Shown here piece after piece: positions 4,093-34,401 of a stretch of 34,844 nucleotides of DNA. The stretch is from contig JAGTWP010000006.1 in assembly GCA_018260755.1 (NCBI GenBank), positions 1 to 34,844 on the forward strand, read 5' to 3'. Every line of letters starts with the position of its first letter. Within the stretch, counting starts at the first letter, position 1. The position numbers were made by a program, and so were the translations under genes. Origin of the DNA: Candidatus Altarchaeum sp. (lineage in GTDB: Archaea; Altiarchaeota; Altiarchaeia; Altiarchaeales; Altiarchaeaceae). The notes under the pieces were generated by a model. It searched no databases and was not told the origin of the DNA. It worked only from the letters and a program-made list of their open reading frames with translations.

Positions 4093-6717
4093 ATGAAAAC
4101 TAAAATTTTGATATTATTTGCTATTTTAATACTCACAACCATAGTTATAGGAACAATGCAGGCAGAACCCATTTATGATTATGGCAATTATTCTGTGAAT
4201 AACAATGTTACAATCTCAGCATGCCTTAATGTAAATGTAGATAAACTTTATGCAAATATAACAAAACCCGATAATACAATAAAAATTACATCACTTTCTT
4301 GTGGAGGAACAAATTATTGTCAACCTTCATGGATTTATTGCACAGGAATATTTAAAAATGCAAATGTTTCTGGAATTTATAATGTGAGTTTTTATAGTGA
4401 TAAGTATGAGTTAAGTAATTCCTTTAGGGGATACTTTACTGTTTTTGAAGGAACATTTTTAAATGTTACTTTTCCATTAAACAATTCATTGACAAATAAC
4501 AGAACAATAATTATCAAAGGATTAACAAATGGAACAAATGTTAGTATAAATAAAGATAGCAATAATTTTACTGCAATTGTTGTGAATGGAACTTTTTTAT
4601 TTCCTTTAAATTTAACAGAAGGAGAAAATGTAATTAACATTGCCGCTTATGGAAAATATAGATTTCAAAATTTAACCGCTTTGAGAATATTTTTAGATAC
4701 AATTCCACCAGAAATCAGATGGATAAATTACAGCAACAGCATTAGAATTTACAAAACATTTAGATTTGCTTTAAATATAACTGACAATGTAAATCTAACT
4801 TATGTTTCTGCTAATATGGTGCTTGATGACATAACAGAAAACCTTTTTATTTATTTTGTTGATGGAAATTATGTTGTTAATGTTGAACCAACAAGAACAG
4901 GAGATTGGATATTAAAAATTAAAGCATGTGATTCAGCAGGAAATTGTAATGAAAGTTCTTTCAGTTATTATGCTTATCAGGAAACAGAAAATGAAGAAAA
5001 GCCAAAAATATCAATATTGCCATCAAATAGAACAGAAAATGTAAGCAAGGATGAAAATAAAACAGAATACGAAAACAAAACGGAAAATAAGAATGAAACT
5101 CTAAAAGAGCAAATAGTTATTTACACACATGGTAATTTGACAACAACATTAAATGCTTCAAGAACAGTTCTTGAAAATATTTCAGCAACAATTTATGCAA
5201 TTCCCTCTGAAAAAGGAATAAAATTTGAAGCAAATGGAAGTGCGTTGAAAAATTTTGAGTTTTATGTAAATGGAACAAAGGTAAAGACAAATGAAGAAGG
5301 ATATATAATTGATGAAAAAAGCAAGGGGATATTTTGGGATTCTTTAAAGGAAAGCTATGAAAAAAGTTTAAAGAGAATAGAAAAATCAAAAATATTAACT
5401 CAAGAAGGCTATGCAATTGGAAAAGTAAATTCAAGTAAAGAATTACAGATAATTGATGGAACATTGGTTGATTTGGAGGGGAATCTTGTAAAGGAAGATA
5501 TAACAATAGAACTTGAAAATGGAGAAAAGATCTTGGTTAAAGGTGGAATAATTGATAAAGAAAGCATCAAAATAATTGAAAAAGCAGAGAAAGATACTAA
5601 GGAAAAGAAAGATACTAATGAAAAAATATATAAAGAAGATAATAAAGAAACAGGAAGGATAACAAATCTGGATTTTGAGAATATTGAAGAAGGTGATGTT
5701 TATGAAGCAATGGTCAGGGATAACGAAGGAAATTTGATAAAAGACGGCGTTGCAGAAATTACTCTTCCAAACGGAGAAAAGATTAAAGTAAAAACAGATA
5801 AGAATGGAAAAGTAAAATTAACTAATGAGAATGGAAAAACAGTACAAGTTGAAAAGGGAAATGCAGAACTTCCTGAAAAAATTGAAGAAGGAAAAGGAAT
5901 TGAAACAGAAGTTAGAGACAGCAGCGGAAATTTGATAAAAGACGGTGTTGCAGAAATTACTTTGCCAAACGGAGAAAAGATTAAAGTAAAAACAGATAAG
6001 AACGGAAAAGTAAAATTAACTAATGAGAATGGAAAAACAGTACAAGTTGAAAAGGGAAATGCAGAACTTCCTGAAAAAATTGAAGAAGGAAAAGGAATTG
6101 AAACAGAAGTTAGAGACAGCAGCGGAAATTTGATAAAAGACGGTGTTGCAGAAATTACTTTGCCAAACGGAGAAAAGATTAAAGTTAGAACAGATAAAGA
6201 CGGAAAGGTAAAATTAATGCAAAAAGATGGAAAAATTGAACAAATAAATGCGACAAACATAAAAATTCCAGAGATTAAAGAAAATGAAAATTATAAAATA
6301 GAAGTTAGAGATGAAAACGGGAATTTAATAAAGAACAGCGATGTTGACATTTTACTTCCAAATGGGCAAATACTGAATGTTTTAACTGATGAAAACGGAA
6401 AGGTAAACTTACAATATAAAGATGAAATTTTTTCACAAATACAAAAGCAGGAATTTGAATTTCGGTGGTATTACTTGCTGCCTTTACTTTTAATTCCCTT
6501 ACTTTTATATCTCTTTCTTAAAGAAGATGTAATTTTAAGCTACGAATTTTATAAAAAATTGAAGGAAGAAAATAAGTTAAGAGAAATTGAAAAATATGGA
6601 AAGAAATATATGCTTAAAAAATATATCTGTGAAGTTAATGACATAAAGGTGATTTTTATTGATTCTGAAAGTGAAGAGCAATTAGCAAAGAAACTAAAGT
6701 TAAAAATTTTGAAATAA
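4093..6717 (+). CDS. Repeat-rich surface protein with C-terminal membrane anchor
   Basis: The ORF track begins at TTG 4081, but ATG 4093 (MKTKILILFAILILTT...) gives a clean signal peptide, so I choose 4093 (874 aa). The N-terminal half has Ig/beta-sandwich character and many N-x-S/T sites. From about residue 535 there are three near-identical 66-residue repeats and a fourth diverged one (core DGVAEITLPNGEKIKVKTD), with a still weaker copy upstream (ITIELENGEKILVKGG). A membrane helix (YYLLPLLLIPLLLYLFL, about 790-812) is followed by a charged cytoplasmic tail of about 60 aa ending KLKLKILK. Likely a cell-surface stalk or adhesin-like protein. The near-identity of repeats at DNA level implies recent expansion or gene conversion. 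Confidence 0.85.
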   Translation: MKTKILILFAILILTTIVIGTMQAEPIYDYGNYSVNNNVTISACLNVNVDKLYANITKPDNTIKITSLSCGGTNYCQPSWIYCTGIFKNANVSGIYNVSFYSDKYELSNSFRGYFTVFEGTFLNVTFPLNNSLTNNRTIIIKGLTNGTNVSINKDSNNFTAIVVNGTFLFPLNLTEGENVINIAAYGKYRFQNLTALRIFLDTIPPEIRWINYSNSIRIYKTFRFALNITDNVNLTYVSANMVLDDITENLFIYFVDGNYVVNVEPTRTGDWILKIKACDSAGNCNESSFSYYAYQETENEEKPKISILPSNRTENVSKDENKTEYENKTENKNETLKEQIVIYTHGNLTTTLNASRTVLENISATIYAIPSEKGIKFEANGSALKNFEFYVNGTKVKTNEEGYIIDEKSKGIFWDSLKESYEKSLKRIEKSKILTQEGYAIGKVNSSKELQIIDGTLVDLEGNLVKEDITIELENGEKILVKGGIIDKESIKIIEKAEKDTKEKKDTNEKIYKEDNKETGRITNLDFENIEEGDVYEAMVRDNEGNLIKDGVAEITLPNGEKIKVKTDKNGKVKLTNENGKTVQVEKGNAELPEKIEEGKGIETEVRDSSGNLIKDGVAEITLPNGEKIKVKTDKNGKVKLTNENGKTVQVEKGNAELPEKIEEGKGIETEVRDSSGNLIKDGVAEITLPNGEKIKVRTDKDGKVKLMQKDGKIEQINATNIKIPEIKENENYKIEVRDENGNLIKNSDVDILLPNGQILNVLTDENGKVNLQYKDEIFSQIQKQEFEFRWYYLLPLLLIPLLLYLFLKEDVILSYEFYKKLKEENKLREIEKYGKKYMLKKYICEVNDIKVIFIDSESEEQLAKKLKLKILK
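5731..6400 (+). repeat. Tandem 198-bp coding repeats
   Basis: The string aatttgataaaagacgg recurs at 5731, 5929 and 6127, exactly 198 bp apart, and a diverged copy (aatttaataaagaac) sits at 6322, 195 bp further on. The first three units differ at only a few bases. All periods are multiples of three, so copy number can change without breaking the frame of the surface protein. Confidence 0.93.
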
Positions 6718-8105: not shown

Positions 8106-8498
8106 ATGGCAGCAAAAAAAGTTGTTAAGGCAGGGGATGTAATGACAAAGGACATAGAATATGTGGATGGAAGTGCAACAGTTGAAGAAGCGGTGAAAAT
8201 GATGAACAATAAAAAAGTGTATAGTTTGCTCGTAAATACGAGAAATACGGACGATGCTTTCGGAATTGTGACAAGAAAGGATGTTGTAAGCAAAATTGTT
8301 GCTCAGGGAAAAGACCCGAAAGCAGTAAAGGTGCATGAAATTATGACAAAGCCATTAATTACTGTATCTCCGGGATTGAGTGTAGAATACTGTGCGAGAT
8401 TGTTTGCAAAGACCGGAATCAGAAGAGCACCCGTATTTGACGGAAAGAAGATAGTAGGAATGATTAATAATACTGCATTGTTGAAAACATTGTTGTAA
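8106..8498 (+). CDS. Two-CBS-domain protein, paralogue 1
   Basis: 130 aa, made only of a CBS pair (Bateman module). CBS1 is about residues 10-65 (AGDVMTKDIEYVDGSATVEEAVKMM … AFGIVTRKDVV) and CBS2 about 75-130 (VHEIMTKPLITVSPGLSVEYCARLFAKTGIRRAPVFDGKKIVGMI). Such stand-alone CBS proteins bind adenine nucleotides or SAM and sense energy state in known examples; the ligand and partner here are unknown. It is followed 65 bp later by a close paralogue, a recent tandem duplication. Confidence 0.93.
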   Translation: MAAKKVVKAGDVMTKDIEYVDGSATVEEAVKMMNNKKVYSLLVNTRNTDDAFGIVTRKDVVSKIVAQGKDPKAVKVHEIMTKPLITVSPGLSVEYCARLFAKTGIRRAPVFDGKKIVGMINNTALLKTLL

Positions 8499-8563
8499 AA
8501 ATAAAAATATAAAAACAATAAATCAAGAAAATTTAAATAAAAATTTAAATAAAATATATAAAA

Positions 8564-8956
8564 ATGGCAGCAAAAAAAGTTGTTAAGGCAGGGGATGTAA
8601 TGACAAAGAATGTTGTATATATAGATGGAAGTGCAACAGTTGGGGAAGCAGTGAAGACGATGCTTGAAAAAAAGGTTTCGGCATTGATAGTGAATTCAAG
8701 AAATGCAGATGATGCTTTCGGAATTGTGACAAGAAAGGATGTGGTAAACAAGATCGTTGCTCAGGGAAAAGACCCAAAGGAAGTGAAGGTGCATGAAATT
8801 ATGTCAAAGCCGTTGATTACCGTATCTCCGGGATTGAGTGTAAAATACTGTGCAAGATTGTTTGCAAAGACAGGAATCAGAAGAGCACCTGTATTTGACG
8901 GAAAGAAGATTGTAGGAGTATTAAGCAACTCCGACATATTCAAGACAGTTGCATAA
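8564..8956 (+). CDS. Two-CBS-domain protein, paralogue 2
   Basis: 130 aa, same length and layout as the preceding gene. The first 14 codons after ATG are almost identical and the CBS2 half is nearly the same (KPLITVSPGLSVKYCARLFAKTGIRRAPVFDGKKIVG). The main divergence is in the middle of CBS1 (EKKVSALIVNSRNADD versus NKKVYSLLVNTRNTDD) and at the C-terminus (VLSNSDIFKTVA). Divergence concentrated in CBS1 may mean the paralogues bind different ligands or heterodimerise; this is inference. Confidence 0.93.
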   Translation: MAAKKVVKAGDVMTKNVVYIDGSATVGEAVKTMLEKKVSALIVNSRNADDAFGIVTRKDVVNKIVAQGKDPKEVKVHEIMSKPLITVSPGLSVKYCARLFAKTGIRRAPVFDGKKIVGVLSNSDIFKTVA

Positions 8957-13855: not shown

Positions 13856-14389
13856 TTAGAATATTTTAAAATTTTTCAACTCCTTTATTTTTTCAACAAT
13901 TTTCTCACTCAAATTTATTTTCTTTTCTATTTTAAATGGAAAATTAATCCTTCCGATGAACTCAACATAAGCATTACCTTTTATCATTATATCTACTTTC
14001 CCATTATTTTTAACTATTTCATCTGTAATATTTAACAACCGGTTTAAATTTTCATACTTTATATTTACTTCGCTTCTTGCTATTTTTGTTTCATTCGGGG
14101 GAATTATTAGTTGTTCATTAAGAGTTCCATTACCTATATAAATCCCATCCAAATAAATTTCATAGTCCGCTCCGTCAAGAGTGGCGGGAATTTTATTCGG
14201 ATTATATGCTTTTAAATTTAAATTCAAAGTAATTTGCTGCAAGTCAATGTTTTTTATTTCAACACTTTCAAAATCCATTTCAACATTTTTAAATGCCTCC
14301 TTTTCCTGAATTTGTGAAAATAGATAAAGTCCTGCGATTAGCAATATGACCAATATTGCAAATATTCCTGCAATTATTTTTGTTTTCAT
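13856..14389 (-). CDS. Membrane-anchored LEA14/WHy-domain protein
   Basis: 177 aa. N-terminal membrane helix (residues 5-25, IIAGIFAILVILLIAGLYLF) followed by one LEA type 2/WHy domain (about 35-155), recognisable from VEIKNIDLQQITLNLNLKAYNPNKIPATLDGADYEIYLDG and the later IPPNETKIARSEVNI. Such domains are immunoglobulin-like folds linked to desiccation or stress in other organisms; the archaeal role is unknown. Its first codons and upstream 70 bp are duplicated at 17606-17704, at the edge of the cargo insertion. The region 13805-13862 just downstream holds degenerate repeats of tttattagaatatt. Confidence 0.85.
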   Translation of the reverse strand: MKTKIIAGIFAILVILLIAGLYLFSQIQEKEAFKNVEMDFESVEIKNIDLQQITLNLNLKAYNPNKIPATLDGADYEIYLDGIYIGNGTLNEQLIIPPNETKIARSEVNIKYENLNRLLNITDEIVKNNGKVDIMIKGNAYVEFIGRINFPFKIEKKINLSEKIVEKIKELKNFKIF

Positions 14390-15152
14390 TTCGGATAAAT
14401 TTTGAATAAATTTTTAAATTTTACAGATAAATTTAATTAAATTTGATTTAAAATATCTCTACCATACAGGAATGAAAATTTCGTTGTAGCCCAAAAATCC
14501 AAGCCCTATTTCTCCGTCTTTAACACTTGGAAGCATAGGTGATATTCCGGGAATTTCAGAGTGCATAAATATTATTTCATAAGCATGTGTTGTCAATGCC
14601 CCGAGTATAAAAGCAGGTAATCCAAATATGCTTATCAATATGGACATAGGAAGTGTTGTCAAAATTTCCATCTGTGCGTGAGGAACGAGAATTAAATAGC
14701 CCTTGGCGGTTATTGTGAATATAAGAATAGAAAAAACAACAAAGAGCAGATAATGATTCGGAAATTTTCTTATGATTACAGAAAACAACAAAACAAAAAG
14801 TAATCCAACAATAAAAAGTTCAATTGTATGAAAATTTACAAAACAGGCAAATATTCCAAATAGCAAAAATATAGCAGATAAATTTTTTGCCCTGCCTTGT
14901 GAAGATAAATATAAAGCACCTATTCCTGACAACGATGCCACAATCGCAAAGTCAGCAATAAATTTCCATCCGGGCAGTTTGCTTATTTTCTCAATAAATT
15001 TAATTCCGTATTTCGTCCTTATCAGAAAGATTATTCCTAAATATCTTTGCTCGTTTTTTCTCATTAGCAATGCAGTCCCGACAAAAAATAATAGAAAAAA
15101 TGCAATAATACCGAACATCATGTAAAAGTCCATGGTTTTTAATTAACGAATA
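14362..15152. repeat. Left copy of the S2P-locus direct repeat (with 769-bp deletion)
   Basis: By eye, 14362-14460 (99 bp) is identical to 17606-17704, and 14461-15152 (692 bp) is identical to 18474-19165. The right-hand locus contains 769 extra bases (17705-18473) exactly at the 14460/14461 junction. The left repeat is thus the right repeat with one internal deletion. It starts inside the LEA14-like gene and ends in what are, at the right copy, the last codons of the flavin-reductase-like gene. Confidence 0.93.
14459..15133 (-). pseudogene. Truncated duplicate of the site-2 protease gene
   Basis: 224 codons identical to residues 1-224 of the full S2P gene at 17692-19146. The frame ends with VW-TAG, the stop being formed by the deletion junction. 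The copy stops twelve residues before the HEISH zinc motif, so it lacks both the active site and the NLMPLSPFDGG motif and cannot be a protease. If translated it would give a stub with several membrane helices, possibly able to compete with the full protein for partners; this is speculation. Confidence 0.92.
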
Positions 15153-15784
15153 GATTTTATTTTTTCTTTGTCTTCTTCAACATACTGCTGCATTGCAGTG
15201 TATTCTGTTGTTCCAAATCTTGAGTTTTTCAATAACAATATTAGTTCATCTTTAAAGTCAAGGGATTCTTTCCAGAATTTGTTAAACCATTGTTCTCTAT
15301 TATAATCAACATACATCTTTCCTTGCTGGACTGTGTTAAGCTCACCCTCTCTTGTTAATCCCGAAAGGGTAAAGTTTGATGAACCTACAACAACTAACTT
15401 ATCGAAAATGTAAGTTTTACCGTGTAAGAAATTCTTATCGAATATTCTTATTTCAACATTTGATTTCTCAAGGAACTTAATTAAATCTGATACATTATCT
15501 TTCTTAGTAGGTGTTAAGTCAAGACCTTCAACTTCTCTCTTTATTTCCTTCAACAATACTTTGCCAAGTGTTTGTTTATTATCATTTAGTTCTGGAGTTT
15601 TTCCAAGTAATAATCTGAACTTCTTAACTTTGCCCAGATTCTCTTTTACTAAAGCAAACCCTTCTACATTAAAGAAAGCAGTTGCAATATCAAGGTTTGA
15701 TGTTGGCTCTGACTTCAGCACTTTATTTAGGAATACTGAAAGCTTTACATTGCTGTTATCAATGATGTTTTCGTCAATTATCAT
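15143..15784 (-). pseudogene. Truncated PLD-type nuclease (N-terminal module of a larger helicase-like protein)
   Basis: 213 codons from ATG 15784, which overlaps the previous stop as ATGA; the track uses an upstream GTG. It opens with KLSVFLNKVLKSEPTSNLDIATAFFNVEGFALV and contains the HKD motif HGKTYIFD followed by GSSNFT, the phospholipase-D superfamily signature. This N-terminal pattern (…DIATAFFN.eGF..l…) is, from memory, typical of the PLD module in front of large SNF2-type helicases of defence loci, where the equivalent of FGTTEYTAMQQYVEEDK leads into the helicase. Here the frame ends six codons later and its last residues (IR) and stop come from the duplicated S2P/flavin-reductase block, so the gene was cut at the cargo border. 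Confidence 0.7.
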
Positions 15785-16290
15785 TTGAATTGCCACCTCT
15801 CGTTCTTGAACATATCAATCAAGTATATACAATCGATGCCATAATCTTGACATACCAAAGGTATTTTTACCTTCTTACCAACTAATGATTCTTCTGCAAC
15901 AACTATCCTTTTTCTTATTGTTTCAATTATGGTTGTTTGCTCATCTGTTTCCATTTCTACTGCAAGAGCAATAACAAAAGGGTCTGCAACAGGTGTTAAG
16001 CTCTCTGATTTCGCTAATTTTGGATATTTCTTCAATATTTCATTCACAATAACTATCTGTTTAATGTTTAGCTTTTTAAATAGTTTCTTTTGTTTCTTAG
16101 CCCACTCCTTGAGCTCATCATCCCCTCTTTCAATCTCCATGAGCACTTCTTCAGGGGATACTAACAATCCATCTTGGATAATCTTCTCTACTTTTGTCCA
16201 AACTCCCGGAAATACTCCCATTGGATACTTTCTATTCAACTCAATCAATGATGATGTATCAATAACATAATAGTTTACTTGAGCTGTCAT
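15781..16290 (-). CDS. DUF4411-type PIN-like protein (putative toxin)
   Basis: 169 aa. YYVIDTSSLIELNRKYPMGVFPGVWTKVEKII is the start typical of DUF4411, with the first acidic PIN residue in VIDTSS; later SPEEVLMEIERGDDELKEWAKKQKKLF, VADPFVIALAVEM and a C-terminal IPLVCQDYGIDCI complete a PIN-like layout. DUF4411 genes commonly sit next to XRE/ImmA-IrrE genes and are regarded as toxin candidates. That is exactly the case here: ATG overlaps the upstream stop by four bases (ATGA), and its own stop overlaps the next ATG the same way. RNase activity is inferred, not shown. Confidence 0.82.
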   Translation of the reverse strand: MTAQVNYYVIDTSSLIELNRKYPMGVFPGVWTKVEKIIQDGLLVSPEEVLMEIERGDDELKEWAKKQKKLFKKLNIKQIVIVNEILKKYPKLAKSESLTPVADPFVIALAVEMETDEQTTIIETIRKRIVVAEESLVGKKVKIPLVCQDYGIDCIYLIDMFKNERWQFK

Positions 16291-17435
16291 TTCGTCGCCT
16301 TTGCTAATACTTTCTTCATTTTGCTTGATTTAACAGATAAGTAACTCAATGCGTCTGCATAAGTGATGAATCCTTTGTCATAGTTGTCAGCAACCAAGGA
16401 AACAAACTTCTTTCCCATCTCAGACAAACATTTTGTTTCTGCTGGAACTCCTCCTCCACCTTTACCAACCTTCTTCTCTTTTTGAGGTCTATTAAGTACA
16501 TCATTATATGTTGATTTTGAGATATAACCAAGTGAATGCATATTGTAAAGAACCATAGCTTTACTAACAGCAAATCTATTAGCAATCTTTGTCAATGTTT
16601 TTGTTTCGACAAGAGATGCTTTATCCGCATCAAAAACATATTTAGCAATAGCTTCTGGAAGAAGGAACTCTGAAGCAAAAGAGTTACACCACTTCTCAAC
16701 TTTATCATTTACAACCATAGTAAAATCAGGAATGCTAACTCCTGACTCTCCTAAAAGAACGTGAGCAAATTCGTGCAGTAGTGAAAATATTCTTGGTCTG
16801 ATTTCATCTTGAGAACTAACTACAACAACATTAAGTATTTCATCAACTAAAGCAAATCCTCTTGCATCTTTGATAGGCATAGAAATCTGGAAAGGAATAA
16901 TGTTCAATTCCTCTATCTTTTCCCTTAAGTATCCACAGAAGTTATAATCGCTCTTAAATTTTGTTTGCTTTTCTTCAGATAAATTAAAGACTTCATTTCT
17001 GAAGTAAATAGCAACATCTTTTGGATTTTCATTAAGATTGTATTTCTTTACCTTTGGCTTTAATGTTTCATTTATGTTTGCAGAAAGCTCCTGAGTAAGA
17101 TGTTGCAATATTCTTGCTTTTCTAATAGCAAGGATAGTTTTTTTATCGAATTCTCCCTTCTTCTCTGTTGAAATAACACGATAATCTTTAGGCAGTGGGC
17201 TTTCAGCCTGTGGCTCAGACAATAAGAAAGCTGCCAAAGGTCTTTTTAAAAGGTTAGCAAGTTTTTTGAGTTGGTTAATTGTTGGCTCTACAGTGCCACT
17301 AAGCCAACCTTTGAAAGTATTCTCACTAACCCTTAAACTATTCATCAGTTCTGTTTCATCCCATCCAGAACTACCTATAAGCCATTTCAATACTTTAGGT
17401 TCAACTCCAACTTTCAATATCTTTGTCTTTGCCAT
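16287..17435 (-). CDS. XRE-HTH and ImmA/IrrE metallopeptidase fusion (putative antitoxin/regulator)
   Basis: 382 aa. An N-terminal XRE-type helix-turn-helix is at about residues 15-72 (MNSLRVSENTFKGWLSGTVEPTINQLKKLANLLKRPL). The ImmA/IrrE domain has the zinc motif H221-E-F-A-H225 (LLHEFAHVLLGES) and the later EKWCNSFASEFLLPEAIA, which supplies the third ligand region. A linker PAETK with a GGGG stretch leads to a C-terminal extension. In this family the peptidase cleaves a repressor or acts as antitoxin. As first gene of the cargo operon it probably regulates itself and the downstream DUF4411 gene. Base usage is less A/T-homopolymeric than in flanking genes, suggesting transfer. Confidence 0.88.
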   Translation of the reverse strand: MAKTKILKVGVEPKVLKWLIGSSGWDETELMNSLRVSENTFKGWLSGTVEPTINQLKKLANLLKRPLAAFLLSEPQAESPLPKDYRVISTEKKGEFDKKTILAIRKARILQHLTQELSANINETLKPKVKKYNLNENPKDVAIYFRNEVFNLSEEKQTKFKSDYNFCGYLREKIEELNIIPFQISMPIKDARGFALVDEILNVVVVSSQDEIRPRIFSLLHEFAHVLLGESGVSIPDFTMVVNDKVEKWCNSFASEFLLPEAIAKYVFDADKASLVETKTLTKIANRFAVSKAMVLYNMHSLGYISKSTYNDVLNRPQKEKKVGKGGGGVPAETKCLSEMGKKFVSLVADNYDKGFITYADALSYLSVKSSKMKKVLAKATK

Positions 17436-17573
17436 TTTGATTATTTCTTTGGCTCATATTTCTTAAAGAGTAATTAATTATATTTGTTATAAATTATATT
17501 TAAAATTCATTATTTTTTTGTACTTTTTACAATGCCGGAAAAATCAGCAATTTTTGAAACTTTTCGTATAATT

Positions 17574-17633
17574 TTAAGCGTACCACTCTATTAAAAATAA
17601 GAGCCATATTCCTGCAATTATTTTTGTTTTCAT
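17574..17633 (-). pseudogene. Orphan 5' fragment of the LEA14-like gene
   Basis: The duplicated block 17606-17704 carries the LEA14 ATG and its first nine codons (MKTKIIAGI), after which the frame runs into cargo sequence (WLLFLIEWYA) and stops. This shows that the right repeat copy begins inside the LEA14 coding sequence. Confidence 0.8.
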
Positions 17634-19165
17634 TTCGGATAAATTTTGAATAAATTTTTAAATTTTACAGATAAATTTAATTAAATTTGATTTAAAATAT
17701 CTCTGAAATTATCTTTAAAATCGGAAATGCGTTAATTATGAGCAAAAATAGCATAAGCCCGATTATTGCCAGTATTATATGCCCTACAATTTCCTTATTT
17801 AAATTAAGCGAAGCAATAATTTCTTCAACCATCTTTCCTCCGTCAAAAGGAGATAACGGCATTAAATTTGTAATTCCAACCAAAAAATTTAATAAAATAA
17901 TCCATTTAAGAAGTTCAAGCAAAATACGAATAAAATTTTCAAAATTTTCCAGATCTTTATTTATCGGAAGCGAATAAGTAATTCCAACATATCCCCTTCC
18001 TTCAATGTTTGGATGTTGCCCGGTTGTAAGCGTCCGGTTTCCCTCATTTGTTTCAAGGGTTATGGTTTTATTTTGTGATAAATTTTGCAGTTGTTTCCAT
18101 GGATCTTCATTGTCAATTTTATAGATTATCATCCCTTCGCTTAAAACACCATAAGAAGGGCTGTTATTCATAACACTTCCGACGAGCATTCCGTTATCAG
18201 GACTGTATGCAGCAGAAACAATCAGGGTAAGAAGCAGCACACCAATCATTGCAACGACAAAATTTGCAAAAGAACCCATCACATAAATTTGCATTCTTTT
18301 ATAGCCCTCACATTTCTTCATTGCTTCTTCATCCGGCTCAACAAATGCACCGATTGGAATTATTCCGAATGTCAATAAGCCCGTTGATTTTAAATTTATT
18401 TTATGAACATAACTCAATATTCCGTGAGAAATTTCATGCGATGTTAAAAGAACAATTAAAGCAATTATACCATACCATACAGGAATGAAAATTTCGTTGT
18501 AGCCCAAAAATCCAAGCCCTATTTCTCCGTCTTTAACACTTGGAAGCATAGGTGATATTCCGGGAATTTCAGAGTGCATAAATATTATTTCATAAGCATG
18601 TGTTGTCAATGCCCCGAGTATAAAAGCAGGTAATCCAAATATGCTTATCAATATGGACATAGGAAGTGTTGTCAAAATTTCCATCTGTGCGTGAGGAACG
18701 AGAATTAAATAGCCCTTGGCGGTTATTGTGAATATAAGAATAGAAAAAACAACAAAGAGCAGATAATGATTCGGAAATTTTCTTATGATTACAGAAAACA
18801 ACAAAACAAAAAGTAATCCAACAATAAAAAGTTCAATTGTATGAAAATTTACAAAACAGGCAAATATTCCAAATAGCAAAAATATAGCAGATAAATTTTT
18901 TGCCCTGCCTTGTGAAGATAAATATAAAGCACCTATTCCTGACAACGATGCCACAATCGCAAAGTCAGCAATAAATTTCCATCCGGGCAGTTTGCTTATT
19001 TTCTCAATAAATTTAATTCCGTATTTCGTCCTTATCAGAAAGATTATTCCTAAATATCTTTGCTCGTTTTTTCTCATTAGCAATGCAGTCCCGACAAAAA
19101 ATAATAGAAAAAATGCAATAATACCGAACATCATGTAAAAGTCCATGGTTTTTAATTAACGAATA
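17606..19165. repeat. Right copy of the S2P-locus direct repeat (complete)
   Basis: 1560 bp from the LEA14 5' end, through the intact S2P gene, to the last codons of the flavin-reductase-like gene. The first 99 and last 692 bp are matched base for base by the left copy at 14362-15152. Between the two copies lie 2453 bp of cargo (15153-17605) with the XRE/ImmA, DUF4411 and PLD genes. Confidence 0.93.
17692..19146 (-). CDS. Site-2-type intramembrane metalloprotease (M50)
   Basis: 484 aa. Cleaves membrane proteins within the bilayer. Several N-terminal helices precede the zinc motif H237-E-I-S-H241 (LLTSHEISHGILSYVHK); FGIIPIGAFVEPDEE follows. A PDZ-like stretch (SGSVMNNSPSYGVLSEGMIIYKI-type region, about 310-385) separates this from the third-ligand motif NLMPLSPFDGGKM near residue 440. 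Its start lies 9 bp after the flavin-reductase-like stop, so the two are likely co-transcribed. It is the intact source of the truncated copy at 14459-15133. The substrate is unknown. Confidence 0.93.
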   Translation of the reverse strand: MDFYMMFGIIAFFLLFFVGTALLMRKNEQRYLGIIFLIRTKYGIKFIEKISKLPGWKFIADFAIVASLSGIGALYLSSQGRAKNLSAIFLLFGIFACFVNFHTIELFIVGLLFVLLFSVIIRKFPNHYLLFVVFSILIFTITAKGYLILVPHAQMEILTTLPMSILISIFGLPAFILGALTTHAYEIIFMHSEIPGISPMLPSVKDGEIGLGFLGYNEIFIPVWYGIIALIVLLTSHEISHGILSYVHKINLKSTGLLTFGIIPIGAFVEPDEEAMKKCEGYKRMQIYVMGSFANFVVAMIGVLLLTLIVSAAYSPDNGMLVGSVMNNSPSYGVLSEGMIIYKIDNEDPWKQLQNLSQNKTITLETNEGNRTLTTGQHPNIEGRGYVGITYSLPINKDLENFENFIRILLELLKWIILLNFLVGITNLMPLSPFDGGKMVEEIIASLNLNKEIVGHIILAIIGLMLFLLIINAFPILKIISEIF

Positions 19166-19659
19166 CTCAAATAGTGCGAACATATTCCAAATTTATTCCC
19201 TCCGATATGCAGCGGACAGAATCCTTCCTTACCTTCACATTCAACAACACTTCCGACAACCAAAACCCTGTCATTAAATTCCTTTTCAAATTCCAGTTTA
19301 CACTCAATCCATCCCGCACATTCTTTTATCCTTGGCACATTAACCTTCCCGGACTTTTCGGCGGTTAGATTCGCATAAGAAATTTTATCGTTTCTTTCAT
19401 TTCCGGAATATTGTGCGCATTTCCATAAATTTGGCAAAATTTCTTCGGCAGGAATATTTACAACAAATTCCTTTGTTTCGCGAATATTTTTTAACGTTTT
19501 CCTAGTGTTCACCGATGAAAAACCGATTAAAGGCGGATTCTGGGATACAGGCATTATAAAACTATAAGGTGCCGCATCTGAATTTCCATTGCCATCAATC
19601 GTTGAAATTAATACAACCGGTCTTGGTGCCAACAATTTATAAAAATTTTGTATTTCCAT
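19156..19659 (-). CDS. Flavin reductase-like FMN-binding protein
   Basis: 167 aa. Begins NFYKLLAPRPVVLISTIDGNGNSDAAPYSF and continues with NPPLIGFSSVNTRKTLKNIRETKEFVVNIP, the split-barrel FMN-binding fold of the flavin_reduct family. SVVECEGKEGFCPLHIGGNKFGICSHYL fits the C-terminal substrate-loop part. Such proteins reduce flavins with NAD(P)H or act as uncharacterised FMN oxidoreductases. Start ATG 19659 follows a tttaaaa leader. Its last codons form the right border of the duplicated block. Confidence 0.9.
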   Translation of the reverse strand: MEIQNFYKLLAPRPVVLISTIDGNGNSDAAPYSFIMPVSQNPPLIGFSSVNTRKTLKNIRETKEFVVNIPAEEILPNLWKCAQYSGNERNDKISYANLTAEKSGKVNVPRIKECAGWIECKLEFEKEFNDRVLVVGSVVECEGKEGFCPLHIGGNKFGICSHYLSIR

Positions 19660-23097: not shown

Positions 23098-23670
23098 TTA
23101 TTTCATATTTATCTTATCATCTTTTGATGTTTGTTCTGAAGTTAGACCTTTAATATTTTGAATCGTATTTTGTATTTCTTCTTCTATGTTTGTGTTATCT
23201 CCAAATGATTGTTTCAGGTTATTTATCCATTCGCAAAAAGGTGTATCATCTGTTATCAAAGCATAAACACTATTTCCAATGGCAACCCTTGCTATTCTCA
23301 AATCTTCTTTATTACTTTTAGAAAAAATTTTATTACTATTAAAATCTTCTTCAATACACTCTGGCAATGGTTTAGCATCCTTTTTCTTATTTATTATGCT
23401 CCTATTTGAATCAGAAAGAATGTTCTTTATATATCTGATTATATGAATATCTCCACTTTCTATTTCTTTACTTTTCTTTTCTATACTTTTCCTTTCTTTT
23501 ATTCTCTTTCCATATCTTTTCCAAAGAAATTTATCACAAACAATTTTATGATGCATCTTATAAATTAGAACTATAAGGTTTGAGCATGTTTTATCATGGT
23601 GCCTCTCCTTGTTTCTTAATTCAATTGCATTACAAATAATATTTTCATCAAGAACTAATTTTTGTGCCAT
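23098..23670 (-). CDS. PIN-like nuclease, partner of adjacent ATPase
   Basis: The track start (23688) would overlap the ATPase gene; the internal ATG 23670 (MAQKLVLDENIICNAI) follows the ATPase stop by one base and fits better (190 aa). The acidic pattern LVLDEN (first strand), KEDLRIARVAIG and ALITDDTPFCEWI resembles PIN-domain active-site Asp positions, which makes this a candidate RNase. The middle is very lysine-rich (KRIKERKSIEKKSKEI). Tight linkage to an OLD/SMC-like ATPase suggests an ATPase-controlled effector, as in several antiphage systems. I do not recognise a named family. Confidence 0.6.
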   Translation of the reverse strand: MAQKLVLDENIICNAIELRNKERHHDKTCSNLIVLIYKMHHKIVCDKFLWKRYGKRIKERKSIEKKSKEIESGDIHIIRYIKNILSDSNRSIINKKKDAKPLPECIEEDFNSNKIFSKSNKEDLRIARVAIGNSVYALITDDTPFCEWINNLKQSFGDNTNIEEEIQNTIQNIKGLTSEQTSKDDKINMK

Positions 23671-23671
23671 T

Positions 23672-25060
23672 TTATTTATCTTCCTCATCGGGTTCGCTTA
23701 AAAATTCAGATAATCCTTCAATCTCTGCCTCAAAAAATCCGGGAAGCCCTCCTTTAACCTGGCCAAACTCATTAATTTCTAATTTCTTAACTTCTGCCTT
23801 TCTGTTTTTATTTTCAAAATAATATATTACTAATTCATCATTCTTTAACTCTTTTTTAGCAACCATATTTAAAAGTCCAAAAACAATATGTTCAGAATGT
23901 GTTGTTATAACAAGTTGTTTTTCCTGTTGCTTTGCAATGTTGGCAAATAATTTTGATAATTGATATTGTGCCTTTGGATGCAAATGATTTTCGGGTTCTT
24001 CAATACAGATAGTATCATTTTGCTTTGCAAGAAAAATCGGAAGATAAGTAAATAACATTTGGTGCGCTCCCAATCCCTCAAATAAAAATGGAATATTCTT
24101 TTCTTTTGACATCAGCTTAACCTCATCTTTTGTTTTTCCCAATTCCGCAAAAAATCTGACATCAATAACATCCTTTATCTTTTCGTAAATTTCATCTTCA
24201 CATAATCTGTTGTAGATAAAAAAATTGGCGACACTTTGCGCCCTTAAACCGATATTTACGTTATCGAAATTTAACTCAGTTGTTTTCTTGTCCATAGTTT
24301 TATAAGTTAAAGTTTCTAATCCTCTTATAGGATAAACGAAACCTGCGGACTTTATCAACCGCTCCGGAGAAAATAAAAGAACTGTAATAAATTCTTCCAT
24401 TGGATCGCTGGATATTCCTTCTAACAACCTGTCATATAGTTGCCAGTTTTCCGTTATATGCTTACGACGAGCATTTAGTTCCATAATTTCTTTTTCAGCG
24501 AATATATCTTTTGCTTCAATAAAAATATCGTTTGCTTTCAATTTATGTTCAATTTTTTTACCTTCAACGGTTTTTCTAATGTCATTTGTCCATTCAATAA
24601 CTTCTTTAAATTTTTTCTCCTCAAAAAGTTTATTACTATTTGAAAAATGGATTTTATGAGATAATAAGGAAAGTTTTTTATCCTGAAGAATATATGTTGA
24701 AAAAATCTCAACCTTGTCATTAGAGACAAATTTTTTGGCAGTTTCAAGTCCTGAGCGTGAAAGGAAATCCTTAAGAAATATTGTTCCTGAAATCTTTATT
24801 TCAAATGATTTTTCTCCCTGATAAATAAGAGCATCAAGGCCATCTTCAACATCAATAAATTTATCTTTAGCAGAACGCTCACTATCTACAACATGTAACT
24901 TTTCTTTTTTCAAAAAAATTTCTTTTTTCAAAAGTTGCACAGCATGGAACACACTTGACTTCCCGCTGTTATTCGGCCCTATAAATACATTGATTTTTCT
25001 AAAATCAATTGTTGTGTCTTTATGAAGTTTAAAATTCCTTAAATTTAAGGTATTGATCAT
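23672..25060 (-). CDS. AAA (SMC/OLD-like, DUF3696-type) ATPase
   Basis: The track starts at 25093, but ATG 25060 (MINTLNLRNFKLHKDTTIDF) matches the usual family start and follows an aatttttaaa leader (462 aa). Walker A is FIGPNNSGKSS at about 27-36. The family motif FEGLGAHQMLFTYLPIF-like segment (about 330-350) precedes Walker B IEEPENHLHPKAQ and the ITTHSEH switch; the C-terminal FGQVKGGLPGFFEAEIEGLSEFL is typical of AAA ATPases with DUF3696. There is no fused TOPRIM nuclease, so the effector is presumably the PIN-like protein encoded one base downstream. Confidence 0.85.
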   Translation of the reverse strand: MINTLNLRNFKLHKDTTIDFRKINVFIGPNNSGKSSVFHAVQLLKKEIFLKKEKLHVVDSERSAKDKFIDVEDGLDALIYQGEKSFEIKISGTIFLKDFLSRSGLETAKKFVSNDKVEIFSTYILQDKKLSLLSHKIHFSNSNKLFEEKKFKEVIEWTNDIRKTVEGKKIEHKLKANDIFIEAKDIFAEKEIMELNARRKHITENWQLYDRLLEGISSDPMEEFITVLLFSPERLIKSAGFVYPIRGLETLTYKTMDKKTTELNFDNVNIGLRAQSVANFFIYNRLCEDEIYEKIKDVIDVRFFAELGKTKDEVKLMSKEKNIPFLFEGLGAHQMLFTYLPIFLAKQNDTICIEEPENHLHPKAQYQLSKLFANIAKQQEKQLVITTHSEHIVFGLLNMVAKKELKNDELVIYYFENKNRKAEVKKLEINEFGQVKGGLPGFFEAEIEGLSEFLSEPDEEDK

Positions 25061-25445
25061 TTTAAAAATTTTAAAATAAAATATATTGAACAATTACGAT
25101 TTTTGTTTAATCATAAATTAGTGATACTTTAAATTGGAGAAGTATAATCTCCAGACACCTGTTGTGTCTATTAGAACTGCCATTATTTATTTATTCATTT
25201 ATTCATAATATTCTTACTACTATTTTTGTCTTTTTTGATATATTATTGGTATTTCAAGGTATTTCAACATATATGAAAAGGCAAACTTTGGACTATTTTT
25301 AAAGTTAAAATTTATGTGTATATGTTGTTATAGTGTATAAGAGGTCAAAATTTTAGTTTTCTTACAATCTGTCAATGTAATTATAAATTATATGCATACA
25401 AATTAAATTTTTAATACTATTAAAATGCATTAATTTAGCATTAAT
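25061..25445. other. Gene-free region with two adjacent short hairpins
   Basis: 385 bp without a supportable gene between argS and the ATPase gene. Two 5-bp hairpins lie side by side: ggaga-agtataa-tctcc (25136-25152) and gacac-ctgtt-gtgtc (25154-25168). The remainder is A/T-rich with tandem ttatttattcatttattcat. It should contain the promoter of the minus-strand ATPase/PIN pair. Confidence 0.5.
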
Positions 25446-28098: not shown

Positions 28099-30594
28099 TC
28101 ATACACCTGCAACAATATTGTCAATTAAAGCAAATACATCAAGTAAATTTATGTTGTCGCTGTCACTTCCAACAAATTTATAATAACTTTTTCCGTATTT
28201 ATCATACTTGGTTAATTCTGTTAAATTTTTTTCTCCGCTTAAATATTCAAGCATTTCAACAGCATCAAAAATGTCATCTGCCTTTATTAATTCATTCTCA
28301 CAAAGTCCTGCAGCAGAATAAATTCCATGTTTAGCAAACGCATTACATATAACCTTTTTATGAGGAGTTCCGTCTTCTACATTTGCATTATCGTCATCTG
28401 CTATGAGCAAATTATCCATAAATTCCGAAAAGTTATAAGCATGAGGTGTAATTCGTATCGCCTTAAAGATTAATGAGTCCGTAAGAGTATTGTTTAAATT
28501 TTTGCGAACATCCCATAATGCTCCGCTTAGAATTAAACCAAAAATATGAGGGTCAGAATTACTCCAGTTTTCCGGATACTTTCGAGTATTATTAAGATTC
28601 CTCGCAAATGACCATCCGTCTGCAAGTATAGAATCGTTATTGATAGTGCATGCAAAATAATCTGCAAATGCTTCGTGCATCGCATCTTCCATAATATTGC
28701 CACTTTCTCCAAGGTCATAAATATGGCCTACAACTGCATGCGTATATTCATGATATATTATGTCACTTCCCAACGCAGGACTTTCGCAGTTTTGTTGGGG
28801 CCCGCTAAAAGTTATTCTATCCATTCCAGGAGAATAAAGAGCATTACATTTGACGCCATTAGCTTCTACAACAGCCTTTAACGGATAATCCAGTTCGGAA
28901 AAATTAAATTCGGCAAAATAATCATGAATTTTATTTACATGGTAATATGTATTTGATTCTTCCTGTCTATAAGAAGTATCATGAGCCATCCAATTCCAAT
29001 TATGTGTTTCATTTCCGCCCCATAAAAAATCATAAAATGTATCGTTTTGTTTATCATTGTCCACATCCACATATAAACCTATTAATTCGGAATGAATATT
29101 TGTATTATTTTCTATTCTTGTAATTTCATAATATCCGTTTTTATCTGTGGCATCATATATATGACTAAAGGACTTGTTAACTACTTTAAATTTTGACAGA
29201 TTCCACTTTCCATTGTCATTTTCAGCATCATCAAAAAATGCGACTCCAGAGTCAGTTATAATTGAAATATTATCAACATAAAAGCCCTCCTTAAATTCAT
29301 ACTTATCACAAGTATATCTAAATCTTAAAAGTATTTCTCCCTTAGTATAATTGGAAATATCTATGTTTTCTTCAAGAACAATAAAACTATTTCCAGTGTA
29401 TGCAAATGAATTGTTTATCCATCCCTGTGTATAAACACCCGGATTACTATATGAACTTGTATATTTTCCTTTTAATTGTTTCCACGAATTTCCTGAATCG
29501 TTTGAAATTTCAATGTATGCAAAGTCCCAGCCCGGTTCGATATAGTATTGTGTAAGAAATGTTAAATTTGCATGAGTGGCATTAGAAAGATTTATCGGAA
29601 ATTTAATTGTCATATTGCTATCATAAAAATTTCCTTCCGTGCCGATTCCGGAGTAAAATGCCGAACTCTTTGAGGTAATATTTATTTTGATAATTTCATA
29701 ACTAAAATTTTTCTCCTGCTGAACATCATCATATTTCTTTGGATAAATCATCCCGCTAACGGTTCCATTAACATATCCAAACTTTATGCCATTATGTTTT
29801 TTGATTATTTTGCCGGAAAATGCGTCAATAAAAAATATCCAGTCGCCTAACGGGGACTCTGTAACAACAAAGACATTCCACACCAAAGTATATCTCCCAT
29901 CCTCTTTTGGAATAATCATAAGAGAAATTTCTTTAATTTTATCTTCTTTATTATTAAAATTTACATCTTCCTTTGCTATTCTTATAGCATCTCCTTTTGA
30001 AATTTTTGGTATTGTGGAAATATTAATCCCCTGCTGAAAATCGCTCCCAATAATTAAAATTCTTCCGTATCCGTCAATAGTTAAACCGACAAGACCACGA
30101 TAAACGGGAATATCTTCATAGTACTGCTGATAGGCTACATAATAGTTGTCACGGTCTGAGTCAAATTTTTTTAATTTTAAATTAGCTGAATTTACCTTTA
30201 AAAATTTTTCGTTATCAGAAATAAAATTATCGGTGATTTTTAGAATATTTCCCCCTTTTATTTTTTCTTCCTTTATTTGTTTTAAGCCAGTTTCTTTAAA
30301 ACCTTCAATTTTTGTATCTCTACCAAAAATTCTGTAAGGTTGTCCTGTTTTGTTGCTCGGGTAAAATTTTAAATTTAAATTTTCTAAATTGCTTAAATCA
30401 GAGTAATTGTTAGAAATTTTGCCATTTTCAAATAAGCAAATTATTTGAAAATATCCGAACGAAGTGAGGTTAGAAACATTAATTTCGGAACTTGTGTCAA
30501 CTGTTCTTACTTCATCAGACGTTATACTATTTTCACTAATTGTAAAAATAAAAAAGATGCACAAGACAACAAAAATCAGGACTTTATTTGCCAT
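28099..30594 (-). CDS. Secreted zinc metalloprotease (M4/M36-like) with dockerin-like end
   Basis: 831 aa. A signal peptide (ANKVLIFVVLCIFFIFT) is followed by an FTP/PepSY-like propeptide (about 60-270, KLKKFDSDRDNYYVAYQQYYEDIPVYRGLVGLTID), a beta-sandwich insert (about 290-480), and the catalytic domain with H615-E-Y-T-H619 and third ligand E641 in MHEAFADYFA. The C-terminal 70 residues contain two EF-hand-like helices, DDIFDAVEMLEYLSG and DSDNINLLDVFALIDNIVAG, like type I dockerin repeats. There is no C-terminal membrane anchor, so it may be secreted or held by protein-protein contact. Residues about 42-57 are encoded by a hairpin-plus-tail element. Confidence 0.88.
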   Translation of the reverse strand: MANKVLIFVVLCIFFIFTISENSITSDEVRTVDTSSEINVSNLTSFGYFQIICLFENGKISNNYSDLSNLENLNLKFYPSNKTGQPYRIFGRDTKIEGFKETGLKQIKEEKIKGGNILKITDNFISDNEKFLKVNSANLKLKKFDSDRDNYYVAYQQYYEDIPVYRGLVGLTIDGYGRILIIGSDFQQGINISTIPKISKGDAIRIAKEDVNFNNKEDKIKEISLMIIPKEDGRYTLVWNVFVVTESPLGDWIFFIDAFSGKIIKKHNGIKFGYVNGTVSGMIYPKKYDDVQQEKNFSYEIIKINITSKSSAFYSGIGTEGNFYDSNMTIKFPINLSNATHANLTFLTQYYIEPGWDFAYIEISNDSGNSWKQLKGKYTSSYSNPGVYTQGWINNSFAYTGNSFIVLEENIDISNYTKGEILLRFRYTCDKYEFKEGFYVDNISIITDSGVAFFDDAENDNGKWNLSKFKVVNKSFSHIYDATDKNGYYEITRIENNTNIHSELIGLYVDVDNDKQNDTFYDFLWGGNETHNWNWMAHDTSYRQEESNTYYHVNKIHDYFAEFNFSELDYPLKAVVEANGVKCNALYSPGMDRITFSGPQQNCESPALGSDIIYHEYTHAVVGHIYDLGESGNIMEDAMHEAFADYFACTINNDSILADGWSFARNLNNTRKYPENWSNSDPHIFGLILSGALWDVRKNLNNTLTDSLIFKAIRITPHAYNFSEFMDNLLIADDDNANVEDGTPHKKVICNAFAKHGIYSAAGLCENELIKADDIFDAVEMLEYLSGEKNLTELTKYDKYGKSYYKFVGSDSDNINLLDVFALIDNIVAGV
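30425..30471 (+). repeat. Hairpin-plus-tail element inside the protease gene
   Basis: A perfect 10-bp stem ttttcaaata/tatttgaaaa with loop agcaaat is followed by tatccgaacgaagtgaggtt. It is in the open reading frame of the protease, read antisense as NLTSFGYFQIICLFEN, between signal peptide and propeptide, and does not break the frame. Confidence 0.6.
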
Positions 30595-34135: not shown

Positions 34136-34176
34136 TTTTCAAACTTGTTTGAAAATACACGAACGAAGTCAGTGTA
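34136..34176 (+). repeat. Hairpin-plus-tail element (MITE unit a)
   Basis: Perfect 9-bp stem ttttcaaac/gtttgaaaa (loop tt) followed by tacacgaacgaagtcagtgta; the tail itself has tacac/gtgta ends. Confidence 0.65.
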
Positions 34177-34194
34177 AAATTTCAAAAAATACAA

Positions 34195-34239
34195 TTTTAA
34201 AATCTCAAAGATTTTAAAATACACGAACGAAGTGAACGC
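34195..34239 (+). repeat. Hairpin-plus-tail element (MITE unit b)
   Basis: Perfect 11-bp stem ttttaaaatct/agattttaaaa (loop caa) followed by tacacgaacgaagtgaacgc. The tail is shared with unit a for 13 bases while the stem is different. Confidence 0.65.
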
Positions 34240-34401
34240 AAAAATCAAAAAATTTACTCGTAATTTTTTGGGGTGGCTGAATAGTTACTTAATTTAATCA
34301 TAATTTTTATAAAAGAAGTAAATTTATAAAGATTATCTTATTATAAACAAATATTATTTCATAAACTATAATATCACAAACTATCATATTATAAACATAA
34401 G

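Follow-up and report, generated by a model that had tools for sequence, protein, structure and literature searches.

A MITE-bounded fragment of a defence-type operon apparently lodged between direct copies of a site-2 protease segment in an archaeal genome

Several described systems resemble parts of the locus analysed here. IS1595-family elements possess inverted repeats starting with GG and generate 8-bp A+T-rich target duplications (PMC12561309). The literature regards DUF4411 as a toxin domain of PIN/VapC-like type (PMC8790059; PMC13273310), and pairs of an XRE/ImmA-IrrE protein with a DUF4411 (PIN) protein are represented by PDB 9VZY/9VZZ, of which 9VZY is a solved two-chain complex. RosmerTA (rmrA/rmrT) also combines a Peptidase_M78 antitoxin with a toxin. 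Larger operons join a IIG-like methylase with a PLD-SNF2 helicase (PADLOC HKD+Snf2, PLD_Helicase, REase_MTase_IIG). Finally, Campbell-type or IS-associated tandem duplications place cargo between long direct copies of host DNA. The present locus has the look of a recent rearrangement of a rather ordinary sort, built from such known kinds of parts, and is a clear example of one.

The window, which is the whole stretch of 34,844 nucleotides that was analysed, comprises bases 1-34844 of scaffold C33 (39,764 bp) from G000, the metagenome-assembled genome (MAG) of an uncultivated Altarchaeum-type archaeon (1.32 Mb, 78 contigs, 85% complete). Three genus-mates, G001, G002 and G003, served for comparison. 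Away from the locus, the window contains three 198-bp in-frame tandem repeats (5676-6269; 88% and 74%) within the gene of an 878-aa surface-type protein, and tandem duplicated 130-aa genes (8106-8956; 85% DNA identity over 300 bp), of which G003 has three copies. The features of the locus are as follows.

13856-14389, minus strand: intact LEA14/LEA_2 gene (Pfam LEA_2, 1.4e-12; collinear in G003)
14362-15152, minus strand: left, partial host-segment copy with the LEA14 start, truncated S2P and last FlavR codons (99/99 + 692/692 against the right copy)
14459-15133, minus strand: truncated site-2 protease (S2P), N-terminal 224 aa (ORF list; no M50 match)
15143-15796, minus strand: 5' part of a gene for a PLD-SNF2 helicase, reduced to the PLD domain (74% identity with the corresponding region of the 1068-aa L086 protein)
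15781-16290, minus strand: intact gene of a DUF4411 PIN-like putative toxin (PF14367, 3.4e-32; PDB 9VZY chain D, 1e-14)
16287-17435, minus strand: intact gene of an XRE + ImmA/IrrE (Peptidase_M78) regulator, the putative antitoxin (PF06114, 3.7e-12; PDB 9VZY chain A, 8.8e-27)
17451-17605, minus strand: predicted IS1595-type MITE, GGCTCTTATTT...AAATATGAGCC (about 25 genomic matches; target duplication in C30; Zn_ribbon_IS1595 in C63)
17606-19165, minus strand: right, complete host-segment copy (alignment with the left copy)
17692-19146, minus strand: intact site-2 protease, M50 (PF02163, 3.2e-24; 85-88% identical in G001-G003)
19156-19659, minus strand: intact flavin reductase-like gene, FlavR (PF01613, 3.1e-29)

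Read along the minus strand, the order is FlavR, S2P, nine LEA14 codons, the MITE, XRE/ImmA, DUF4411, the PLD fragment, the truncated S2P and LEA14, with all genes co-directional. The first-pass annotation described this arrangement as toxin/defence cargo flanked by direct copies of a 1560-bp host segment with native outer junctions, which is borne out. Alignment also agrees with its count of no base differences: the left copy (791 bp) is identical to the right copy (1560 bp) over 99/99 and 692/692 bases and lacks 769 bp, with a breakpoint microhomology of 1 bp (T). The identity ends immediately at both outer sides, and a chance origin of the match is excluded. The 769-bp deletion removed the HEISH-bearing catalytic half of the left S2P, and the second copy of the first LEA14 codons (~9-10) abuts the MITE end at 17605/17606. 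LEA14, S2P and FlavR are each present in one intact copy.

A search of relatives for an empty S2P locus, proposed with the first description, finds one in the genus-mate G003, where FlavR, S2P and LEA14 are collinear with neither cargo nor duplication. Over this locus G000 and G003 diverge by roughly 12-18%, whereas the left and right copies show 0 differences in 791 bp. This comparison points to a recent event, to conversion, or to a single physical copy assembled twice, and is in line with the earlier view that the duplication is recent. We also accept as possible that recombination between the flanking copies could free the cargo.

Pfam supports the earlier naming of the cargo genes as XRE/ImmA-IrrE, DUF4411 and a cut PLD gene. 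By homology, the cargo derives from an archaeal operon of a known kind, of which it retains a fragment; such operons consist of a IIG-like methylase, XRE/ImmA-IrrE, a DUF4411 PIN protein and a PLD-SNF2 helicase. An intact operon in G003 (contig C145) encodes a 1223-aa methylase, XRE/ImmA, DUF4411 and a 1068-aa PLD-SNF2 helicase. The complete operon occurs at eight related loci (G003 (L059/L127), L086, L096, L110, L118, L120, L121 and L122), and the gene order of the cargo is the same, as in G003 C145 and the nearest locus, L086 (identities of 51% for XRE/ImmA, 65% for DUF4411 and 74% for PLD). In the contig scan, matches were obtained with an alignment as query, and a single XRE protein gave none. 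The PLD gene is truly cut: its homologues, 1068 aa long in two cases, continue into the SNF2 helicase, whereas the window homology stops at aa 206 without the conserved continuation K-S/T-L-Y-E-L/M-Q-K-D/E, and the reading frame ends at a stop codon supplied by the host segment at its FlavR end. Unlike the complete operons, the window lacks the methylase and the helicase motor; these remaining parts were found neither at the locus nor elsewhere in the 85% complete G000, where a search for further cargo copies also found none. Because both are missing, the locus alone cannot restrict DNA.

The regulator and DUF4411 genes are adjacent and are the only intact genes of the cargo. Of the 86 related loci, 79 show the order XRE then DUF4411. 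Each chain of PDB 9VZY has a homologue in one of the two cargo proteins, so complex formation by such a pair is documented for at least one organism. The cargo proteins keep the HEXXH motif and the PIN acidic residues; however, the homology to the 9VZY/9VZZ pairs is distant and the window pair survives from what was a larger operon. On these grounds the two genes can be read as a type II-like toxin-antitoxin pair with a presumed toxic partner. The regulator also matches the RmrA models of RosmerTA (2.2e-14), but for the cargo DUF4411 no RmrT model gives a match, even with the threshold at E=10, and we therefore reject membership in RosmerTA. A second, distant XRE/ImmA-DUF4411 pair is present in G000 on contig C30 (L060:2960-4563; 27%/36% identity). 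Another defence-like unit of the window, at 23098-25093, consists of an AAA_15/OLD-like ATPase and a small partner gene (AriA/Gabija-like PADLOC matches), and G003 has a similar ATPase/partner pair at the same flank (L041:746-2768).

At the upstream edge of the cargo, a 155-bp sequence ends exactly at the border with the host copy, its final base being the last before 17605/17606. It starts and ends with inverted sequences (GGCTC...GAGCC), with GGCTC(A/T)TATTT... at each end of 17451-17605. The statement in the first-pass annotation that terminal repeats are absent thus does not hold, as an element with inverted ends lies precisely at the cargo/copy junction. The stretch 17449-17608 recurs at about 25 places in G000 (25-26 matches), many of them at contig ends, and once oriented, the copies resolve into a single element with GGCTCATATTTTTAAGAGAGTGAT... 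at one end and ...ATTAATCACTCTTTAAGAAATATGAGCC at the other. The copies in C71 and C30 are identical (194/194), and the C30 copy has an 8-bp target duplication, AAAAATTA. Between ends of this kind, a longer C63 copy carries a stop-interrupted frame for a protein remnant that matches Zn_ribbon_IS1595 above the Pfam cut-off. The GG-starting inverted ends are shared with IS1595-family MITEs, and the 8-bp duplication of the one copy and this remnant would fit them too; from these sequence features 17451-17605 is classified as a putative non-autonomous IS1595-type element. The differences are that no intact IS1595 transposase or DDE domain was found in the G000 assembly as an autonomous partner, and that the window copy is flanked by unmatched sequences (AGGAATAT vs AAAGAAAT). 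Among the two-ended copies in G000 (C30, C71, C47 and the window) only C30 carries a duplication; since C71 and C47 also lack one, its absence at the window MITE alone proves nothing. The window copy is 73% identical to C30/C71, and because it has diverged to this extent, its own transposition may be old.

An integron-like attC reading of the repeat was dropped in view of the inverted ends and the target duplication, and the fold of the MITE strand (z = -1.5) was given no weight as evidence. One-ended MITE transposition was also considered and set aside, since the study that might have served as precedent treats IS801/IS91, which use a different mechanism, and attributes most fragments to reorganisation (PMC3189936). 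In G002, another species of the genus, a MITE-like relative of the element is found immediately downstream of LEA14 (L030:3703-3785), so that elements of this type have neighboured the LEA14 locus more than once. In addition, the window contains, at 30444-30484 and 34148-34252, a short dispersed repeat whose core is CGAACGAAGTGA-like, and similar repeats lie beside elements on other contigs.

Besides the 769-bp deletion, the locus contains only two non-native junctions. One, 17605/17606, joins the MITE to codon 10 of LEA14. The other, 15152/15153, joins the FlavR end to the helicase gene; here no homology to the aligned relatives can be seen, and the unassigned sequence amounts to about 26 bp at most. 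An origin in which the MITE end was joined to LEA14 at codon 10 and a single further join was illegitimate, with no circle needed, best accounts for this structure, and we give it about an even chance of being correct. From the arrangement we infer the order of events, the involvement of a transposase and the process behind the joins as follows. The starting point would be a mobile operon (methylase, XRE/ImmA-IrrE, DUF4411, PLD-SNF2) in which an IS1595-type MITE lay immediately upstream of the regulator gene; the outer end of the MITE would have become joined to codon 10 of the LEA14-like gene. Because this junction falls to the base on the element terminus, it is most simply explained by transposase action or by MITE copies recombining with each other, and the latter could equally have produced it. 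The chromosome with interrupted LEA14 would then have been repaired from, or exchanged with, an uninterrupted copy, reaching the observed structure in one more step and making LEA14 intact again. In this step a single illegitimate junction, made by unequal exchange or by a template switch in repair, would connect the 3' end of the S2P segment of the uninterrupted copy (15152) to the helicase gene just behind the PLD domain (15153). Such a join would remove the remainder of the operon, keep LEA14, S2P and FlavR in one intact copy each and place the remnant between tandem copies of the 1560-bp S2P segment. The redundant left S2P would afterwards have been trimmed by the loss of 769 bp. The regulator-DUF4411 pair may be expressed from the MITE, by read-through from S2P, or both, and if its toxin is active, an addiction effect may help to retain the unstable duplication.

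How far the tandem layout itself can be trusted depends on the assembly. The N gaps of about 110 bp in G000 suggest that it was built from paired short reads. Many contigs, such as C60, C44, C26, C51, C68, C4 and C6 (loci L008, L011, L013, L015, L019, L021, L023 and L014), end inside or at the termini of the IS1595-type element, which suggests that several near-identical full copies broke the assembly. Up to k=693, at every k tested, the tandem arrangement cannot be distinguished by its k-mers from a truncated chromosome accompanied by a 4013-bp circle, the circle then being the carrier of the intact S2P; up to k=100 its k-mers also equal those of a wild-type chromosome accompanied by a 3244-bp circle. 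Given this equality and the gapped MAG, the layout with both copies around the cargo is likely but unproven. A wild-type or truncated chromosome and a separate cargo molecule, or two strains, might have been joined through the identical 99- and 692-bp stretches, and the fragmentation of G000, with its many contigs ending at the same IS family, would favour such an artefact or wrong phasing. Real reads would nevertheless still be required for the three novel junctions (14460, 15152 and 17605), the window is free of N, and its MITE is too unlike the other copies for a join by k-mer confusion inside it to be likely. We regard this reading as unlikely on balance, while giving it real weight. A variant in which the cargo exists as a circle of ~4.0 kb (or 3.2 kb) with the host segment, and the ImmA/IrrE-DUF4411 pair acts as an addiction module keeping the circle or the tandem duplication, appears very unlikely; in one phase of this variant the circle would carry an intact S2P and the chromosomal S2P would be truncated.

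A circle also figures in the first-pass annotation, which proposed a single crossover with a circular molecule bearing the host segment, or a tandem duplication involving the cargo. The shape does fit: Campbell-type integration of a 4013-bp circle (the 1560-bp S2P segment plus the cargo) by one homologous crossover at S2P would yield exactly the direct copies and native outer junctions without loss of a host gene. However, the need for a circle is unsupported, because there are only two non-native junctions and one of them is a transposable-element terminus. Making the circle would take two prior illegitimate junctions, so that this route explains less with more steps. Moreover, the cargo shows no replication or integration gene in the ORF list or Pfam, consistent with the earlier remark that it holds no integrase, and an exact pattern search of IMG/VR did not find the junction sequences. 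The MITE terminus at the edge and the already decaying left copy also set the locus apart from Campbell or IS-associated tandem duplications. Integration of a circle is therefore improbable in our view. Rather doubtful, too, is homology-facilitated illegitimate recombination, in which linear DNA sharing homology at one of its ends would have been taken up from a related donor whose MITE and cargo already lay beside S2P. It shares both junctions with the preferred origin and accounts for an additive duplication, but no such donor is found among the three genus-mates; we also know of no demonstration of natural transformation in this lineage, which counts against it.

The locus offers a snapshot of a defence-operon fragment lodged in an archaeal chromosome without loss of a host gene. 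Its anatomy is that of an element end on one side and an illegitimate join on the other, where the duplication would be a product of repair and the spare copy is decaying. The case also shows that repeats in a MAG can conceal a circle, and if the circle with its addiction module were real, a toxin-antitoxin pair would stabilise a duplication of host genes. If the pair retains the repeat-flanked segment in the chromosome, the locus would provide a simple natural test of whether toxin-antitoxin pairs stabilise chromosomal duplications. Its interest lies in this clear anatomy and in the testable idea of a toxin-antitoxin pair that guards its own repeat-flanked niche.
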